Under the pieces are notes generated by a model. It was not told where the DNA came from. It did no database searches and saw nothing but the letters and a program-made list of their open reading frames with translations. Shown in pieces: positions 486-63,585 of a stretch of 64,000 bases of DNA; the stretch's first letter is position 1, and every line of letters begins with the position of its first letter. A program made the position numbers and the translations under genes. The DNA comes from Gammaproteobacteria bacterium (GTDB taxonomy: Bacteria; Pseudomonadota; Gammaproteobacteria; Pseudomonadales; Pseudohongiellaceae): the NCBI GenBank assembly GCA_002711845.1, contig PASF01000011.1:124001-188000 (forward strand). The letters are read 5' to 3'.

Positions 486-1559
486 TTACACGCGCCGCAG
501 CAGGAACAGGCCAAACAGTGCACACAGGACAATAGGGGCCAGGACAGCCACAAATGGACTGATGCCATATAGAATGGTTGCCGGCCCCAGCGTGCGCTGG
601 ATGATGGTGAAGCCCAGACCGATGGCAATGGCGACAAACACCCTGAAGCCCATGGTCGCTTCGCGCAGTGGGCCAAACACAAACGATACCGCCAGCAGCA
701 CCAGGCTCAGCGTCGCCAGTGGTTGCAACAATTTTTTCCAGAACGCCAGATAATAGTTGCTGCTATCCAGGCCTTCACTGTCGAAATAGCGGGCAAACTG
801 GTACAGCCCGCTGATGGACTGACGATCCGGACGTACCAATAGCACACTCAACAGCGACGGTGACATGTCCACGGACCAGCGCATTTCATCATGGTACTGT
901 GCCTGCAATGCGTCTCCGCCAAAGCGCGTTTCGCGCACCCCCGTCAGACGCCAATAGGGTTCACCCACGTCATCCACATAATGGCCCTGCTCGGCAAAAC
1001 TGCTGCGCAGCAATTCGCGCCGGTTACTCAGTTCGTAAACAGTGATGCCGAACAGCTCACGGCCGCCCGGTGCGATGGCATTGATATGGATATACTCGTT
1101 GCCGATTTTGCGCCAGTCACCCTGCGAACTGCTGATGGCCTGGCCACCGCTTTGTATCAGCGCCCGCTGACTCTGGGCAGTCTGCTGCAAAGTCGGCGCC
1201 ACCCATTCGCCCAGCACCAGACTGAACACCATGACCCCCAGCACCGGTATCATGACCCAGCCCACCAGCACGGAGGTTTTAACACCGGAGGACTGCATCA
1301 CCAGCAATTCCTGGCTTGAAGCCAGTATGCCCAGGCCGATCAGCGCGCCGCCCAGCGCTACAAACGGCAACAGCTCATACACACTGGTCGGCAGCGTTCG
1401 CAGCACATACACAATCGCATCCCAGGCGGTGTAGTAACGATTGGTATCTGCCAACTCTTCGGCAATGGTAAACACCAGGTCGATCATGGTGATCAACCCC
1501 AGCACCACCAACATGGAGAGCAGTACGGTTTTGGCCAGGTAACGGGCAAGCATTGGCAT
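486..1559 (-). CDS. lptG: LPS export ABC transporter permease LptG
   Basis: LptG is one of the two inner-membrane permeases of the LptB2FG complex, which extracts lipopolysaccharide and passes it to LptC/LptA. The 357-residue product has the YjgP/YjgQ layout: N-terminal membrane segments (about residues 5-30, 50-75, 90-115), a large periplasmic beta domain (about 130-260), and three C-terminal membrane segments. The start at 1559 (MPMLARYLA) is preferred over an in-frame codon 42 bp upstream. It lies one base after the lptF stop, and a GAGG sits about 10 nt before it. It is the last gene of a thioesterase-lptF-lptG operon. Confidence 0.93.
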   Translation of the reverse strand: MPMLARYLAKTVLLSMLVVLGLITMIDLVFTIAEELADTNRYYTAWDAIVYVLRTLPTSVYELLPFVALGGALIGLGILASSQELLVMQSSGVKTSVLVGWVMIPVLGVMVFSLVLGEWVAPTLQQTAQSQRALIQSGGQAISSSQGDWRKIGNEYIHINAIAPGGRELFGITVYELSNRRELLRSSFAEQGHYVDDVGEPYWRLTGVRETRFGGDALQAQYHDEMRWSVDMSPSLLSVLLVRPDRQSISGLYQFARYFDSEGLDSSNYYLAFWKKLLQPLATLSLVLLAVSFVFGPLREATMGFRVFVAIAIGLGFTIIQRTLGPATILYGISPFVAVLAPIVLCALFGLFLLRRV

Positions 1560-55653: not shown

Positions 55654-56523
55654 ATGTCGAAAGACTTCATAACGGCGTCGGTCCTTGCCGCCGTGGTGGC
55701 GGTAAGCCTGACCGGCATCAGCACAACGGTCAATGCCCAGCCCGGGGACATTCCCCGCACAGCGGACGGCAAACCGGACATGAACGGGCTGTGGCAGGCG
55801 CTGGGCAGCACCCACTGGAACCTGGAGCCCAGTGCTGCCAAAGCCGGCCCCGATTACCGAATGGGTGCCAATGGCGCCATTCCTGCCACGCTGGGTGTGG
55901 TTCAGGAGGGTCCGATTCCCTACACGCCTGCGGCCCTGCAAACCCGCAACGAAAATGCTGAAGACTGGGCCGCGCTGGATCCGGTGGGTAAATGCTATAT
56001 GCCGGGCGTGCCGCGCGCCAACTACATGCCCTTCCCGTTCCAGATTGTGCAGTCGCCGGAACACATGGTCATGGCCTATGAATTCGCCAGCGCCATGCGA
56101 ATTGTTTATATGGATCAACCCGACTTTGACGGGCCGGTACCGGCCTGGATGGGGCATTCACGTGGCCACTGGGAAGGCGACACGCTGGTCATCCGGGTCA
56201 CCGACTTTATGCCCTATACCTGGTTTGACCACGCCGGCAATCATCACAGCGACCAGCTTGAGGTTATTGAACGCTACACACTGGAAAGCCCCAATCTGAT
56301 CAGTTACGAAGCGGAAATCCGCGACCCGCAGACCTTCACCCGCCCCTGGACCTTGCGTTTACCATTATACCGACGCATGGAAGAGAACGCGCAGTTGCTT
56401 GAATTCAAATGCGTGGAATTCGCCGAGGAACTGATCTACGGTTATCTTAACAAGGACGCACCGCCGGACCGCGAGCCGCCACGCGGCATGCCCTTCACCA
56501 TTCAGGAACCGGTCACCCCTTAA
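55654..56523 (+). CDS. secreted protein of the DIPRTAxGxPDxxGLW family, paralog 3 (divergent)
   Basis: A 289-residue exported protein (signal peptide cleaved near VNAQ), the shortest and most divergent of the four paralogs. It keeps IPRTADGKPDMNGLW, FPFQIVQSPEHMVM, WMGHSRGHWEGDTLVI and PWT. A His-rich segment (TWFDHAGNHHSDQLE) replaces the equivalent of the other three, and the C-terminal Cys is in LEFKCVEFAEEL rather than YEYACHEGNY. The first Cys is in GKCYMPG. GGGAG lies eight bases before the ATG. It is followed 22 bp later by paralog 4. Confidence 0.75.
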   Translation: MSKDFITASVLAAVVAVSLTGISTTVNAQPGDIPRTADGKPDMNGLWQALGSTHWNLEPSAAKAGPDYRMGANGAIPATLGVVQEGPIPYTPAALQTRNENAEDWAALDPVGKCYMPGVPRANYMPFPFQIVQSPEHMVMAYEFASAMRIVYMDQPDFDGPVPAWMGHSRGHWEGDTLVIRVTDFMPYTWFDHAGNHHSDQLEVIERYTLESPNLISYEAEIRDPQTFTRPWTLRLPLYRRMEENAQLLEFKCVEFAEELIYGYLNKDAPPDREPPRGMPFTIQEPVTP

Positions 56524-56545
56524 TCCGGACTCGTGGAGCCCCCTC

Positions 56546-57532
56546 ATGAAGACAACGTTTCACAAACCCGCTTTACTGGCACTGCTGTGCACCAGCAGCC
56601 TTTACACCTTTGCCCAGGACGCCGACTGGCAGGTCCCTCGCACCATCAATGGCGACCCCGACCTGCAGGGCGTGTGGGCCAACAACAGCAGCACCCCACT
56701 GGAGCGCCCGGCATTTTTTGGCGACCGGCCGGAGCTGACCGCCGAAGAATTCGCCGAACTGCGCGCGCAGGCGGCAGAAATTGAAGCCAGCGGCGGTGAT
56801 GCACTGTTTGGTGACGGGTTCCTCAATGCTGTCATCACCGGCGAAGTTCAATCCTATGACCCGGCCACCGGCAACTACGATGCGGCCTGGATGGTTGACC
56901 GCAACCTGGAGAATCGCACCTCGCTGATTGTGGACCCGCCCAACGGCCGTATCCCTGCCATGACCGAAGAGGGTCGTGCCCGACTGCAGGCACGTGCTGC
57001 CAATCGCCCCGGCGCCACCGACTCGTACCTGGGCCGTCCATTGCAGGAGCGCTGTATCACCTGGGGAATGCCTTACATCATGGCGGGGTATAACAGTTAC
57101 TACCAGATCGTGCAGAGCGAGGACACCGTTGCCATCATTCAGGAAATGATCCACGACGTCAGAATAGTCCCCCTGAGTGACAAACCCCACGCCGACGAAC
57201 GCATCGAATTGTGGCATGGCGACTCGCGCGGCTGGTGGGAGGGAGACACGCTGGTGGTGCAGACCAAAAACTTCTCCGATCAGAGCCAATTCCGCGGCGC
57301 CGGCGCCAACCGCCTGTTCACCGAACGCTACACCCGCATCGCCAACGACATCCTCGAATACCAGTTCACCGTCGAAGATCCCAGCACCTGGGAACGACCG
57401 TGGACCGCTGTCATCAACTACACCGCCAGCGAAGACCCGATCTACGAATACGCCTGTCACGAAGGCAACTACGCCCTGATGGGTATCTTATCGGGTGCCA
57501 GAGCCGCAGAACGCGACGCACAGAACAACTAG
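56546..57532 (+). CDS. secreted protein of the DIPRTAxGxPDxxGLW family, paralog 4
   Basis: A 328-residue exported protein (signal peptide cleaved near TFAQ). It has the family start WQVPRTINGDPDLQGVWAN, then ERCITWGMPYIMAGYNSYY, QIVQSEDTVAII, EMIHDVRIVPL, WHGDSRGWWEGDTLVVQT, PWTAV and YEYACHEGNYALMGIL. GGAG eight bases before the ATG supports the start. It is in an apparent two-gene operon with paralog 3; the structured 84-nt element starts 28 bp after its stop. Function is unknown. Confidence 0.78.
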   Translation: MKTTFHKPALLALLCTSSLYTFAQDADWQVPRTINGDPDLQGVWANNSSTPLERPAFFGDRPELTAEEFAELRAQAAEIEASGGDALFGDGFLNAVITGEVQSYDPATGNYDAAWMVDRNLENRTSLIVDPPNGRIPAMTEEGRARLQARAANRPGATDSYLGRPLQERCITWGMPYIMAGYNSYYQIVQSEDTVAIIQEMIHDVRIVPLSDKPHADERIELWHGDSRGWWEGDTLVVQTKNFSDQSQFRGAGANRLFTERYTRIANDILEYQFTVEDPSTWERPWTAVINYTASEDPIYEYACHEGNYALMGILSGARAAERDAQNN

Positions 57533-57560
57533 AAACCAACAGATAAATTACTACCACACT

Positions 57561-57644
57561 GGCAGAGAGCGTCAGTGTGCAGGGCGCATCGCCTCGAAGC
57601 GCATGCCGCGAGAGCCGATCGCCCTTTGCGCTGGTGCCCGATCC
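57561..57644 (+). ncRNA. 84-nt structured element, copy A
   Basis: A hairpin element whose central 33 nt (57588-57620) are identical to copy B at 63287-63319. The arms differ in sequence between copies but pair internally in the same register. In A, AGGGCG (57581-57586) pairs with CGCCCT (57620-57625), and the outer arm 57569-57579 pairs with 57627-57637 with several G.T pairs. The apex can fold with ATCG/CGAT, CTC/GAG and GCG/CGC stems. It lies between convergent paralog 4 and ispH. The type is my best guess; a DNA repeat remains possible. Confidence 0.55.
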
Positions 57645-57670
57645 ACTAACCGAGAGCCGACCGCAAACAA

Positions 57671-58666
57671 CTAACGAGCCAGCTCCCGCGGCATCCTAAA
57701 CACGATATTCTCCTCAACCCCAGGCACCTCCAGCGGCGCCTGCCCCGAGATTTCCCGCAGCCGGTCAACCACCTGTTGCACAAGAATCTCCGGCGCCGAT
57801 GCACCCGCGGTCACCCCAAAGCGCTTTTTGCCTGCAAACCATTCAGGCTTCAGGTCATCCACACGGTCAATCAGATACGCTTCACAGCCCATACGTTCAG
57901 CCAGTTCACGCAAGCGATTGGAGTTGGAACTGTTCGGAGAGCCTACAACCAACAGCAGGTCCGACTCCAGCGCCAGTTGCTTAACCGCATCCTGGCGATT
58001 CTGTGTGGCATAACAGATATCCTTCTTGCGGGGCCCTTCGATGAGCGGAAAGCGCTCGCGCAGAGCATCGATGACCTTGGCAGTATCATCCATGGACAGG
58101 GTTGTCTGGGTAACATACGCCAGACGGGACGGATCTCTTACTGCCAGGCTGTACGCATCCTCAACTGACTCGACCAGGTATATACTGCCGCCTTTGCTGC
58201 AGTCGTACTGCCCCATGGTGCCTTCGACTTCAGGGTGGCGTGCATGACCGATCAGCACGCATTCGCGACCTTCCGCACTAAAACGCATGACTTCGAGGTG
58301 TACTTTGGTCACCAATGGACAGGTAGCATCAAACACCTGGAACCCGCGAGCAACGGCTTCCTCCTGTACCTGCTGCGAAACGCCGTGAGCGCTGAAAATG
58401 ACAATGGGCTGCCGCCCCAGGCTATCAGCAAGCGGCACGTCGCCAAGTTCGTCAACGAATATCGCGCCGCGCTGACGCAAAGTATCCACCACAAACTTGT
58501 TATGCACGACTTCGTGCCGCACGTAGATGGGCGCACCGTACACATCCAGCGCACGATTGACTATATCGATGGCACGGTCAACACCGGCGCAGAAACCTCG
58601 CGGATTGGCGAGTCTTATCTGCGCACCCGGCGGGACCTCCACGTCGAACATCTGCACTGCACTCAT
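57671..58666 (-). CDS. ispH: 4-hydroxy-3-methylbut-2-enyl diphosphate reductase
   Basis: The last enzyme of the MEP isoprenoid pathway, reducing HMBPP to IPP and DMAPP with an iron-sulfur cluster. The 331-residue product is typical. The three cluster cysteines are in [10 protein letters not shown] (C26), FDATCPLV and [16 protein letters not shown] and SAHGVS carry the conserved active-site His residues, and [11 protein letters not shown] follows. It is downstream of fkpB on the same strand, the usual gammaproteobacterial order. Confidence 0.96.
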
Positions 58667-58716: not shown

Positions 58717-59238
58717 TTACAACTGAATCCTGACAGCCTCGGTACCTGGCGCAATCACTGACAGTATATCGGCTGTGAACAGGATATCGCGTCCTGCCAG
58801 TGGGTGATTGAAGTCAATTAGCACATGCAATTCACCGATCTGGCGCAGCACACCGGGTATTTCATTGCCACCGGCATCGGCGAACGACACCACAGTGCCT
58901 TCCTCCACCGGATCGGTGGTATTGGCCAGCAACCCGGCAAAACGCTGCCTCGGGAAGGACTGCACGTTGTCCGGATTGATCGCGCCGAACGCCTGTTCCG
59001 GCGGAAGCGTTACCGACACTGAAGCGCCCTGCCCGGCGCCCAACAGCGCCGCTTCGAAACCCGGCAGTAAATTGCCATCGCCCACCCTGAAGGTCGCCGG
59101 TGCTTTGCCATAATTACTGTCGATTTCCGTCCCATCAGGCAGTGATAGTGAAAAATGCAAGGTCACACGGGCGCCTTCACAGACCACGGGGCTGGCAACT
59201 GCCGGCGCCTGCTGATCGTCTTTCTCGGGATCATGCAT
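58717..59238 (-). CDS. fkpB: FKBP-type peptidyl-prolyl cis-trans isomerase (FkpB/SlpA)
   Basis: A 173-residue SlyD/FkpB-type isomerase. The FKBP core shows [19 protein letters not shown] and [18 protein letters not shown], with an insert-in-flap domain ([19 protein letters not shown]) and [18 protein letters not shown]. It probably acts as a cytoplasmic chaperone. The start at 59238 overlaps the ileS stop by 8 bp, so the genes are translationally linked. In most relatives lspA sits between ileS and fkpB; it is missing here. The N-terminal tail is longer than in E. coli. Confidence 0.9.
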
Positions 59239-62068
59239 AATAACGTTGCTCGCCGTCGCCGCTGATATTGTCCACACAACGGCCACACAGTTCGGGGTGC
59301 GATGCATGGGATCCGACGTCCGGACGATGATGCCAGCAGCGTACACATTTTTCCTGTGCAGACGGCGTGACCCGCAGCCGCAATCCTGGCAGCTCGGTGG
59401 CAACGGTGTCCGCAGCGTCGCCCGATGCCATGGGCTGCAAGGTGGCGGCTGACACAATCAGCACAAAACGCAGCTCATCTTTGAGTGTCGACAGCCGCTT
59501 CAGCAATACCTCGTCGCAATACAGGGTCACTTCCGCAGACAAGGCCGCACCTACTTTTTTCTCGGCGCGCTGTTTTTCCAGCTCCTTGTTGACGGCGGTC
59601 TTCACCTCGATGAGTTCGCGCCAGAAGGCATCGCTGAAATCATCCCGAACCGGCAATGCCGGCAGGCCCTCATCAAATTGTGCCAGGAATACCGACTCGG
59701 ACCGCTCACCGGGCACAAACTGCCATATTTCATCCGCTGTAAAGCTCAGGATCGGCGCAATCAGGCGTACCAGCACTTCGGTGATGTGATACATCGCAGT
59801 TTGTGTTGAGCGACGCGCCAGACCCTCTGGCTTGGCGGTGTATTGCCGGTCCTTGATAATATCCAGATAAAAACTGCCCAGCTCTATGACACAGAAATTA
59901 TGAACCTTTTGATACAAATTCAGGAACTGATAGTTTTCATAGTCCTGCTTGACCTGATCACGCAACTGCTGTGCCTGGCGAGTGATCCAGTAGTCCAGCG
60001 CCAGCATGTTTTCCGGTGCGACTGCGTCCGTGACCGGGTCAAACCCGTTCAGGTTAGACAATAGAAAACGCGCGGTATTGCGAATGCGTCGGTAGGCATC
60101 GGCAACCCGCTTGAGGATTTCCGGCGACACCGCCATCTCGCCGCGGTAATCCGTGGCCGCAACCCACAAACGCAGAATGTCGGCACCGTAGTCATTGAAT
60201 ACTTCCTGCGGAGAAATGGTATTACCGATGGATTTTGACATCTTGCGGCCATCGGCATCCACAGTAAAGCCATGTGTCAGCACCTGCTTGTAAGGTGCTG
60301 TCCCATTCATGGCGATGGCGGTTTTTAATGACGACTGAAACCATCCGCGATGCTGGTCGGATCCTTCCAGATACAGGTCAGCCGGATAACCCAACCCTTC
60401 ACGTTGTTGCAGGACAGAAAAATGCGTGACACCGGAATCGAACCAGACGTCGAGGGTGTCAGTCACTTTATTGTAGTCACGGGCATCAGCACCCAGCAGG
60501 TCTTCTGCACTGGCTTCAAACCAGGCCTCAATACCTTTTGCTTCAATGCGTGTCGCAACCTGCTCGATCAGATCTGCCGTATCCGGGTGTAACGTCCCGG
60601 TCTGTTTATGGACAAACAGCGTGATGGGCACACCCCAGGTACGCTGTCGCGACACACACCAGTCCGGGCTGCCCTTGAGCATCAACTCGATTCGTGCCTG
60701 TCCCCACTCGGGCACCCACTTCACACCCTTGACGGCGGCAAGCGAGTCATCCAGCAACCCTTTCTCAGTCATGCTGATAAACCATTGCGGCGTGGCCCGG
60801 TAGATCAACGGCGTTTTGGTGCGCCAGCAATGCGGATAGCTGTGGCGGATTTTCTCCATCATCACCAGTGCCTGCTCGCGACGCAGTATGTCCAATACCT
60901 GCTCATCCGCCTTGTACACATGCACCCCGGCCAGCTCACCAGCTGCCTCGACAAACACGCCGTTTTCATCGACCAGATTCAGTGTCCCCAGGCCATAAGT
61001 CTGACCGGCGATAAAGTCTTCCATGCCATGATCGGGCGCCGTGTGCACCGCGCCGGTACCGGCGTCTGTGGTGACATGATCGCCCAGCAGCACGGGCACC
61101 TGACGGTTGACAAAAGGATGCTGCAAACGCTGGCCTTCCAGCACCGCGCCTTTCGCCAGTCCGAGACGCTCGACCCTGTCACAACCGTAACGCGCCATGA
61201 CTTCGTCCTGCATGTCGGCGGCAACGATCAGCAGCTCTTCACCCATTGCCTCATCAACCGTGCAACGCAGCAGCGCATATTCCAGGTTTTCGTTCAGGCA
61301 GACTGCCTGGTTTGAAGGCAATGTCCAGGGTGTTGTGGTCCAGATGACCAGAGACATGTTTCTGTCACCCGCCACCGCCTCGGTGACTGCAAACGCCGTC
61401 AACCACGATGCCCGCTCCAACACCGCAAACCGGACATCGATGGCGAAGGACGTTTTATCCTGATATTCGACTTCTGCTTCAGCCAGGGCTGACGCTCCCA
61501 CTACACTCCAGTAAACTGGCTTGAAACCTTTCACCAGATGGCCGTTGGCGGCGATACGCCCGAGCGCGCGCACGATATTGGCCTCGGTATCAAAATTCAT
61601 GGTCAGGTAGGGATTATCCCAGTCGCCAAACACGCCCAGACGCACAAAATCCTTCTTCTGATTCTCCACCTGCCTGGCGGCGTAATCACGACAGGCCTGG
61701 CGGAATGCCGCATGACTGATCTTCTGCCCGGCCTTGCCTTTTTTCTTTTCCACATTGTGTTCGATCGGCAACCCGTGGCAGTCCCATCCCGGCACATAGG
61801 GCGCATCAAAACCCGCCAGTGTGCGTGACTTGACGATGATGTCTTTCAGCGTTTTATTGACTGAGTGACCCAAATGCAGATCGCCGTTGGCGTAAGGGGG
61901 GCCATCATGAAGAATGAAAGACGGACGACCAGCACTGCTCTCACGAATCCGGCGATACAGATCCATGTCTTGCCAACGGGCCAGCATACCCGGCTCCCGC
62001 TGCGCCAGGCTGGCTTTCATGGGGAAGTCGGTAAAGGGCAAATTCAGGGTCTGTTTGTAGTCAGTCAT
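59231..62068 (-). CDS. ileS: isoleucyl-tRNA synthetase
   Basis: Class Ia synthetase charging tRNA-Ile in the cytoplasm. The 945-residue bacterial-type protein has HLGH (residues 65-68, in [13 protein letters not shown]), a full CP1 editing domain, KMSKS at about 609 ([10 protein letters not shown]), and a C-terminal zinc finger with CVRCWHH and LCGRCVDNI. The start fits the family. It lies between ribF (149 bp upstream) and fkpB (8-bp overlap) in one strand-wise cluster. Confidence 0.96.
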
Positions 62069-62216: not shown

Positions 62217-63173
62217 CTATTGCCTGAAGCGCGAGAAGTATTGTCGGACCTCCTCCACATCCAGGGCAATCCGGGTCTTGAGCGCTTCCAGCGAATCAAA
62301 CTTCTGCTCCGGTCGCACCCGGTGCCGAAATGTCACTGACACTCTGGCGCCATATATTTCCTGATCAAAGTCCAACAGGTGCACCTCAAGCAAGGCCTTG
62401 CCAGCCTCTTTGACCGTCGGGCGATAACCAATGTTGGCCGCACCCACTGCATCAATTTTCTCATCCTCGCCCAGGATAATTTCCACGGTGCAGGCATACA
62501 CGCCATGCAAAGGGATATTGCGCCGATTCAGCGCCAGATTACAGGTTGGAAACCCGAGATCGCGACCCAGCTGTTGTCCGCGTACCACCGTGCCGGAGAT
62601 GGCATACGGTCGGCCAAGAATGTCTGCCACCCGGCCGAAATCCGCTTTGGCCAGACATTCACGCACATATGTACTGCTGACACGAACACCTTCGGACTCG
62701 CAACTGGCGGTTTCCTCGACATCAAAGCCGGCACTCTGACCAACGCGACGCAGCAGTTGAAAGTCGCCGGCACGCTGATAGCCAAAGCGGAAATCGTTTC
62801 CTACGATCAGACAGCGAACCTTGAGACCCGCTACCAACACATCGTCAATATAGGATTCGGGACTCAGCCGGCTGAGTTCCCGATTGAATTCCAGCAGGTA
62901 TACGTAGTCAACGCCCAACGCCCGCAGCAACGCCACCTTCTCGCCCGCTTCGCTCAGACGCGGCGGACAATCCCGGGGATCACTGGCGAAAAACTCCTCC
63001 GGATGCGGCTCAATGACAATCACCACAGACGGCACGCCATAGGCAGCCGCTTTCTCCAGCAACTGCGCCACAATGCGCTGATGCCCAAGATGGACCCCAT
63101 CAAATTTGCCAATCGTCGCTACACAGCCATCATGCTGGCGCAGGAACCCTTCAGTACTGTGGATGACTTTCAT
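62217..63173 (-). CDS. ribF: bifunctional riboflavin kinase / FAD synthetase
   Basis: A 318-residue enzyme that makes FMN from riboflavin and FAD from FMN. The N-terminal adenylyltransferase domain has ATIGKFDGVHLGHQ (about residues 19-32) and a later VGNDFRFGY and VSSTYVREC. The C-terminal kinase domain shows GRDLGFPTCNL and GVYAC. It precedes ileS on the same strand, as is usual. A TATAAT box lies 26 bp before the start. Confidence 0.95.
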   Translation of the reverse strand: MKVIHSTEGFLRQHDGCVATIGKFDGVHLGHQRIVAQLLEKAAAYGVPSVVIVIEPHPEEFFASDPRDCPPRLSEAGEKVALLRALGVDYVYLLEFNRELSRLSPESYIDDVLVAGLKVRCLIVGNDFRFGYQRAGDFQLLRRVGQSAGFDVEETASCESEGVRVSSTYVRECLAKADFGRVADILGRPYAISGTVVRGQQLGRDLGFPTCNLALNRRNIPLHGVYACTVEIILGEDEKIDAVGAANIGYRPTVKEAGKALLEVHLLDFDQEIYGARVSVTFRHRVRPEQKFDSLEALKTRIALDVEEVRQYFSRFRQ

Positions 63174-63259: not shown

Positions 63260-63343
63260 GGCAGCGGGTCGCAGAACACGGCGTGTATCGCCTCGAAGCG
63301 CATGCCGCGAGAGCCGATCACGCCGGGTTCTGCGGCCCGATCC
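63260..63343 (+). ncRNA. 84-nt structured element, copy B
   Basis: The second copy, with the same total length, the same ends (GGCAG at the left, GCCCGATCC at the right) and the same 33-nt apex (63287-63319) as copy A. Its arms are nearly perfect: 63265-63277 pairs with 63327-63339 (13 pairs, one T.G), and 63279-63285 with 63319-63325 (7 pairs). It lies between ribF and a small membrane-protein gene, ending 8 bp short of that gene's stop on the other strand. Confidence 0.55.
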
Positions 63344-63351
63344 CCAGACCC

Positions 63352-63585
63352 TCAGGACTCGCTATCGGCAGCAGCATCTGCCAGCCTGGCGCGTCCGCTC
63401 CGGTACAACCACCGCCCCAGCACCAGCGCCCCGACGATCACAACAAACTGCCCCACAAACACGTTCGCCACCGAAATGGAATCCGGACGCGTCATGATAA
63501 AACCGAGATTGACTGCCGTGAGCAACGCTAAAACCACACAGAATAGAGACAGTGCTAGAAGGACAAAGCCAGCTATTTTTTGCAT
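63352..63585 (-). CDS. small two-helix membrane protein
   Basis: A 77-residue protein with hydrophobic helices at about 5-28 and 42-62, and a charged C-terminal tail. The ATG at 63585 has GGGAG eight bases upstream, supporting translation. No family is recognised. Its stop is next to structured element B, and it diverges from the right-edge membrane gene. Confidence 0.6.
   Translation of the reverse strand: MQKIAGFVLLALSLFCVVLALLTAVNLGFIMTRPDSISVANVFVGQFVVIVGALVLGRWLYRSGRARLADAAADSES

Follow-up and report, generated by a model that had tools for sequence, protein, structure and literature searches.

An imperfect hairpin with a near-invariant apex and covarying arms at both ends of the ribF–ispH block in four Pseudohongiella species

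The window analysed here is a stretch of 64,000 nucleotides from contig C11 of a 3.59 Mb genome assembled into 15 contigs (G000). It carries a ribF–ileS–fkpB–ispH block with two copies of an imperfect hairpin, referred to as copies a and b, at its opposite ends (Table 1). The reading frames of ileS and the fkpB-like gene overlap by 8 nt (59231–59238) and no lspA lies between them; lspA usually sits between ileS and the fkpB-like gene in the gammaproteobacterial operon. The gene convergent to ispH is the second of two adjacent plus-strand genes (55654–57532) which, by eye, encode secreted-looking proteins of similar build. Neither protein gave a Pfam or NCBIfam family at E <= 0.001, and the second of the two genes adjoins ispH in the genus members printed. 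The membrane protein encoded upstream of ribF gave best Pfam and NCBIfam E-values of 0.012 and 0.013, with no family over its cut-off. The ATTATAA box between this gene and ribF was recognized by eye, was missed by a consensus promoter scan and is kept in most of the genus members printed, with or without the hairpin. The TTATAA within it is symmetric, and firing on the plus strand could also be possible judging from the motif.

Table 1. Features of the window at and around the two hairpin copies (CM, covariance model).
Feature	Coordinates	Strand	Remarks
Secreted-looking protein (by eye)	56546..57532	+	Ends 28 nt 5' of copy a; no Pfam or NCBIfam family at E <= 0.001
Hairpin copy a	57561..57644	+	Between the 3' ends of the convergent + gene and ispH; CM 99.4 bits
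Copy a apex, 33 nt	57588..57620	+	Identical in 10 of 13 aligned copies
ispH	57671..58666	-	NCBIfam NF002188, E 1.3e-152; end 26 nt from copy a
FKBP-type peptidyl-prolyl isomerase (fkpB-like)	58717..59238	-	Pfam PF00254, E 2.8e-13
ileS	59231..62068	-	NCBIfam TIGR00392 above its cut-off
ribF	62217..63173	-	NCBIfam NF004159, E 4.7e-109; start 86 nt from copy b
Conserved ATTATAA	63199..63205		TATAAT -10-like box of ribF on -, by eye
Hairpin copy b	63260..63343	+	Between the small membrane-protein gene and the ribF promoter region; CM 102.5 bits
Copy b apex, 33 nt	63287..63319	+	
Small membrane-protein gene, 77 aa, upstream of ribF	63352..63585	-	Stop 8 nt from copy b

Both copies are exactly 84 nt long and share 33 identical central nucleotides (offsets 27–59), as the initial annotation of this DNA had stated; over their full length, 62 of 84 nt are identical. 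The pairing rule that it had proposed, in which offset i pairs with offset 84-i from offset 8 to offset 25, also holds on recounting. The 18 pairs are standard apart from one mismatch per copy (19/65 in copy a and 18/66 in copy b), and seven pairs (10/74, 11/73, 15/69, 16/68, 20/64, 22/62 and 24/60) are changed on both sides with pairing kept. The repeated direct 20-mers of the window number 14; they overlap and all come from the hairpin apex. Copy b is the most stable 90-nt fold on the plus strand of the window and the second most stable on the minus strand, while copy a lies outside the 14 best 90-nt folds of either strand. The fold z-score of copy b is -5.40 on the plus strand (0 of 200 shuffles as good) and -4.32 on the minus strand; the corresponding values for copy a are -2.23 (4 of 200 shuffles as good) and -0.81. 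The flanks of the two copies are unrelated, and descent from a larger repeat, which had been named as a possible refutation, is thus not borne out.

In the genome of the window these two copies are the only ones found with a 20-nt core at up to three mismatches. A search of 95 relatives with the core at up to two mismatches gave matches in six genomes: two in G000, three in G006, two in G011, seven in G013 and a single two-mismatch match in each of G055 and G066. The last two genomes are from outside the genus and their matches, which have no matching arms, were set aside. A covariance-model search of 137 family genomes, the kind of check suggested in the initial annotation, produced strong matches solely in G000, G006, G011 and G013; those in G013 comprise seven on the strand of the element and four weak ones antisense to the same hairpins. 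The element was not found in the other 11 of the 15 genus genomes. Four further family genomes gave one weak match each (E 0.0065, 0.0094, 0.30 and 0.45), and these were read as chance; the apex is broken in all three of the alignments shown, and two of these three also have many broken arm pairs. In a sample of 390 genomes from the order, only G000 and G006 have matches at E <= 0.01. A relaxed apex pattern searched against 84,980 species genomes, a set that may omit the genome of the window itself, found four stretches in Pseudohongiella sp. HyVt-330 and CAJXPR01, which are two of the four carrier species.

Searches of mobile DNA gave no match to the element in phages, and the 20-nt core has no match in viral contigs. 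Three plasmid matches are short only (23–27% of the query covered, E 0.3–0.9). A looser 18-nt pattern found 14 stretches in viral contigs, of which the best reached a covariance-model E-value of 0.22 (L117), and a weak partial match in L116 (4545–4601, E 0.27) overlaps its pattern site; all of these were read as chance. Rfam 15 gave no matches in the window at the gathering score, the threshold at which alone copy b was scanned. At E <= 5, one match falls beside the hairpin in 57400–57800, where it scores 13.7 bits and the gathering score is 80, and three further matches in L011, L014 and L017 do not fall on a hairpin. Among the open-access PMC papers listed by literature searches, no title or abstract start describes the element. 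The element is real and constrained, clade-specific among the genomes searched and not represented in Rfam.

In all four carriers the element occupies the same two syntenic spots. Their RibF proteins are 93% (G011), 91% (G013) and 87% (G006) identical to that of the window, compared with 60–70% for the other 11 genus members. No hairpin was seen by eye in the 420 nt before ribF or in the 330 nt after ispH in 10 of the 11 non-carrier genus genomes (G012 excluded). The small membrane gene is visible before ribF in eight of the 10 non-carrier genomes read, and the gene convergent to ispH is printed for seven and recognizable in the DNA of the other three. Sister species that lack the hairpin have the same neighbours, so the gene block is ancestral, and comparison of these sequences indicates that the hairpins were most likely gained within the four-species clade, at both ends of the block. 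Movement of the operon as a cassette between two recombination sites was considered and rejected, as the neighbours are conserved in the hairpin-less sister species.

The carriers other than G000 have one to at least four tandem copies per site. The head-to-tail unit is 109 nt at site b of G006, 122 nt at site a of G013, where there are three copies, and 141 nt at site b of G013. The last array lies at contig ends: C12 closes with two copies, and C3 opens with two more before it runs on into the small membrane gene; at least four copies would be present at this site if C12 and C3 are neighbours, as the gene order suggests. The G011 contig ends 8 nt past the model match of copy a, so that the flank of this copy falls outside the contig and further copies may lie there. 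Fragments of copies are found beside the arrays, such as CGAGAGCCGATC after the last G013 copy, and at the sequence level the arrays look like the product of local birth and decay. Within positions 80–300 of L011 (G013, contig C3), short GCCCGATCCACTGACC repeats lie between the hairpins and a half copy (CGAGAGCCGATC...) lies past the last one. All matches to this 3'-end motif with zero or one mismatch in the 15 genus genomes are at the two sites. With two mismatches, GCCCGATCCACTGACC occurs elsewhere 54 times, compared with 28 times for the reversed pattern, hairpin-less species included.

Fourteen copies were extracted, of which one G013 copy, identical in its hairpin letters to its neighbour, was dropped, leaving 13 for alignment. 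RNAalifold predicts 28 pairs for these 13 copies. In the apex the predicted register differs from the i/84-i rule, with AUCG opposite CGAU, followed by CCUCG opposite CGAG and a G; the predicted features are two single-base bulges on the 3' side, a 2 × 2 internal loop and GC(GCAU)GC. Pairing is standard in 96.4% of the 364 cells, compared with 34–46% in slid registers, a control that favours the structure because the structure was derived from the same sequences. Compensatory changes exceed chance: 11 of the 28 pairs are doubly changed, compared with 6.1 in shuffles (0/500), and the covariation score is 0.299, compared with 0.156 (0/500). The number of further pair types does not rise above the shuffles (180/500 for 13 copies and 142/500 for eight copies). 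The smaller set, taken from the 14 copies as one per site and species to avoid counting tandem copies, gives a similar picture, with 96.9% of cells paired and 11 of 28 pairs doubly changed (5.4 in shuffles; 0/500). Seven pairs are changed on both sides among the four site-a orthologues and five among the four site-b orthologues. The copies in relatives thus keep their pairing, and the loss of arm complementarity that had been proposed as a refutation is not seen.

The three copies that depart from the common apex are all from G013 and are one or two bases off: each has a C-to-T change at alignment column 49 and one also has an A-to-G change in the tetraloop. Among the four species, 65 of 158 to 90 of 146 fourfold sites of ribF differ (41–62%), and between copies the arms diverge by as much as 53%. 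At this divergence, identity of the 33-nt apex through drift alone would be very unlikely. The apex pairs are invariant save for one that adjoins the tetraloop; since these pairs hardly vary, it seems to be the sequence of the apex, and not its pairing alone, that is constrained. Exchange between copies of one genome could account for part of this uniformity. Pairing of the loop with an antisense target was also considered and rejected. Among the matches listed for a loop-complementary 12-mer, the five exact sites outside the element include no conserved target and all lie in unrelated open frames. When one mismatch is allowed, sites for the 12-mer outnumber those for its reversed control in the four genomes (for instance 54 versus 13 in G000, among the matches listed).

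Several features differ between the two strands. G.U cells outnumber A.C cells on the plus strand by 30 to 5 for in-register pairs of the 13 copies, by 15 to 3 in eight copies and by 20 to 2 within the 28 modelled pairs, a bias that comes from few column types (10 versus 3 in 13 copies and 7 versus 3 in eight) in a structure that was itself predicted on the plus strand. The C-to-T change in the apex of three of the 13 copies keeps a pair, as G.U, on the plus strand only. The z-score is lower on the plus strand in 11 of 13 copies and on the minus strand in two; the raw folding energy is lower on the minus strand in eight of 13. Taken together, these features suggest, but do not prove, that it is the plus strand that folds, whether as RNA or single-stranded DNA. 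The promoter scan found no clear plus-strand promoter just before copy a or copy b; its sole plus-strand match (9/12, 63106–63133) lies inside ribF. No terminator-like site follows either copy on the plus strand. Near copy a there are two short terminator-like stems on the minus strand, one of which includes the outermost 5 nt of the copy; no intrinsic terminator was found near copy b and none is formed by the hairpin itself. The two sites share no transcript context on the plus strand, whereas on the minus strand each copy comes directly after a stop codon (8 nt for copy b and 26 nt for copy a).

The covariation at both sites in four species, the near-invariant apex and the excess of G.U over A.C agree with the original suggestion of selection for structure around an apex that is recognized through its sequence. 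The explanation favoured here, held with moderate confidence, is that the plus strand specifies a lineage-specific structured RNA with a bulged, protein-bound apex and with arms that selection keeps paired. The hairpin, irregular and some 28 pairs long, would present the apex, with its two 3'-side bulges, 2 × 2 loop and GCAU tetraloop, to a putative protein or other ligand that reads it; the arms would need to do no more than pair, so that compensated drift would be tolerated. At site a the RNA would form part of the plus-strand gene's 3' UTR, reading towards ispH. At site b it would belong to a transcript that starts in the ribF promoter region and runs away from ribF, in antisense to the gene for the small membrane protein; pseudo-symmetric bidirectional promoters are described in bacteria in part of one report (PMC12825309). 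Tandem copies (two, three or at least four) would raise the number of binding apices per transcript. The fold, its covariation, the constraint on the apex, the fixed positions and the tandem copies are shown by the sequences; an RNA as the acting molecule, protein binding by its apex, this transcript layout and any effect are what we infer from them. A more elaborate version, in which the element is an RNA module that arose in one Pseudohongiella clade, whose tandem-expandable arrays of identical apices mark both ends of the ribF–ispH block and, by titrating or recruiting a single RNA-binding protein, coordinate expression of the block and its neighbours, is a speculation that is unlikely to hold.

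The same folded strand could instead act as DNA, as a single-stranded hairpin or a cruciform resembling REP/BIME or transposase substrates, which would serve a DNA protein as its binding site on either side of the block and would be multiplied in tandem by replication slippage; this is a tentative alternative. Both sites are intergenic, tandem arrays occur and the raw energy of the minus strand is about equal to that of the plus strand. In DNA hairpins, too, G.T is better tolerated than A.C. Genes for Y1 (IS200/REP-type) transposases, relatives of which act on one-strand hairpins, are present in all six genus genomes searched (10 Y1_Tnp matches in all). However, the one Y1 gene inspected (L131 on contig C10 of G000, 744–1463, minus strand) has a different hairpin on either side, the element has no GTAG tag, its positions are the same in four species, and two copies were found in its genome and no dispersed ones in the relatives. 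The initial annotation had also offered a hairpin-dependent mobile element, here inserted twice, and such an origin would fit two equally oriented copies whose flanks are unrelated and the empty spots in the 10 sister genomes printed. The fixed two intergenic spots shared by four species, the different hairpin beside the inspected Y1 gene and the lack of dispersed copies in the genomes searched do not bear this out: no other insertion was found in 15 genus genomes and none that is convincing in 137 family genomes, and phages, plasmids and viral contigs gave, respectively, nothing, short matches only and nothing significant. The arms also differ between copies, unlike those of a recent transposition, and a mobile element is regarded as highly improbable.

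Alternatively, the apex (inverted repeat ATCG.CTCG...CGAG..CGAT) might be an ordinary double-stranded operator that a DNA-binding protein reads, with arms that form a quasi-palindrome kept paired by template switching and no selection on the fold. Part of one study describes template switching as able to create and repair hairpins, to make multibase compensatory changes and to mimic selection for pairing (PMC8794818). The apex stem pairs below the tetraloop show no covariation, as in a sequence read by a protein, and copy b sits immediately upstream of where the ribF promoter is placed. Much of the pattern would be explained in this way. The many G.U pairs in the arms fit this reading less well, since template switching would be expected to turn them into Watson–Crick pairs, and the location of copy a between two gene ends would be odd for an operator; an operator of this type is considered doubtful. 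Whether read as RNA or otherwise, the element clearly exemplifies a fold that was gained recently and is under strong constraint, with a frozen tip and drifting arms. Knowledge of the empty sister sites and of the two-site layout makes its origin, its function and any role of template switching directly testable, and the element may lead to a new RNA-binding or hairpin-binding protein in Pseudohongiella.

With regard to known systems, the MS2 operator and the IRE are bulged RNA hairpins with invariant loops that serve as operators for proteins. The element resembles them in its sequence-fixed, bulged apex on a stem where pairing alone matters, but its stem is much longer, it occurs in tandem and its binding through the apex is only predicted. 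The attC sites of integrons are imperfect hairpins with conserved parts and variable paired arms, and can be in tandem. In contrast to attC, the element has a constant middle and varying outer arms, no recombination boxes were seen by eye at its outer ends and its neighbour genes are ancestral to the genus rather than cassettes.

REP and BIME sequences are characterized in parts of two papers as short, intergenic, imperfect hairpins that are often in tandem and possibly transcribed, and in which a bulge can serve recognition (PMC3733652, PMC8266576). The element shares with the GTAG and CGTC families its intergenic position, imperfect pairing, bulges and tandem copies, but it is 84 nt long rather than 20–50 nt, it combines a near-invariant apex with covarying arms and it is present in two copies, at two loci only, rather than in hundreds. 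No conserved GTAG or CGTC was seen by eye beside the 13 aligned copies, the counts of two, three, two and seven copies in G000, G006, G011 and G013 at two sites are not those of a highly dispersed repeat, and the covariance model placed no copy beside any other gene. Separately, three similar hairpins (GGGGACGGAGGC...GCCTCCGTCCCC) flank the Y1-type transposase gene in L131 (718–773, 1516–1553 and 2172–2209) and are probably a REP-like family of G000; GAGGCGATA of two of them is also found on the minus strand of the apex region studied here, probably by chance.

A further likeness is to lineage-specific families of structured RNAs and stem-loops, identified through comparative genomics, of the kind treated in parts of PMC8632094 and PMC2267715, with which the element has in common an intergenic location, a covarying stem, a conserved apical sequence and no known family. 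It differs in its observed range of four species within a single genus, in its two sites flanking one gene block and in its local tandem arrays. As a lineage-specific structured intergenic element it is of a kind that is already known, set apart by an unusually clean frozen apex and by its two-site layout.
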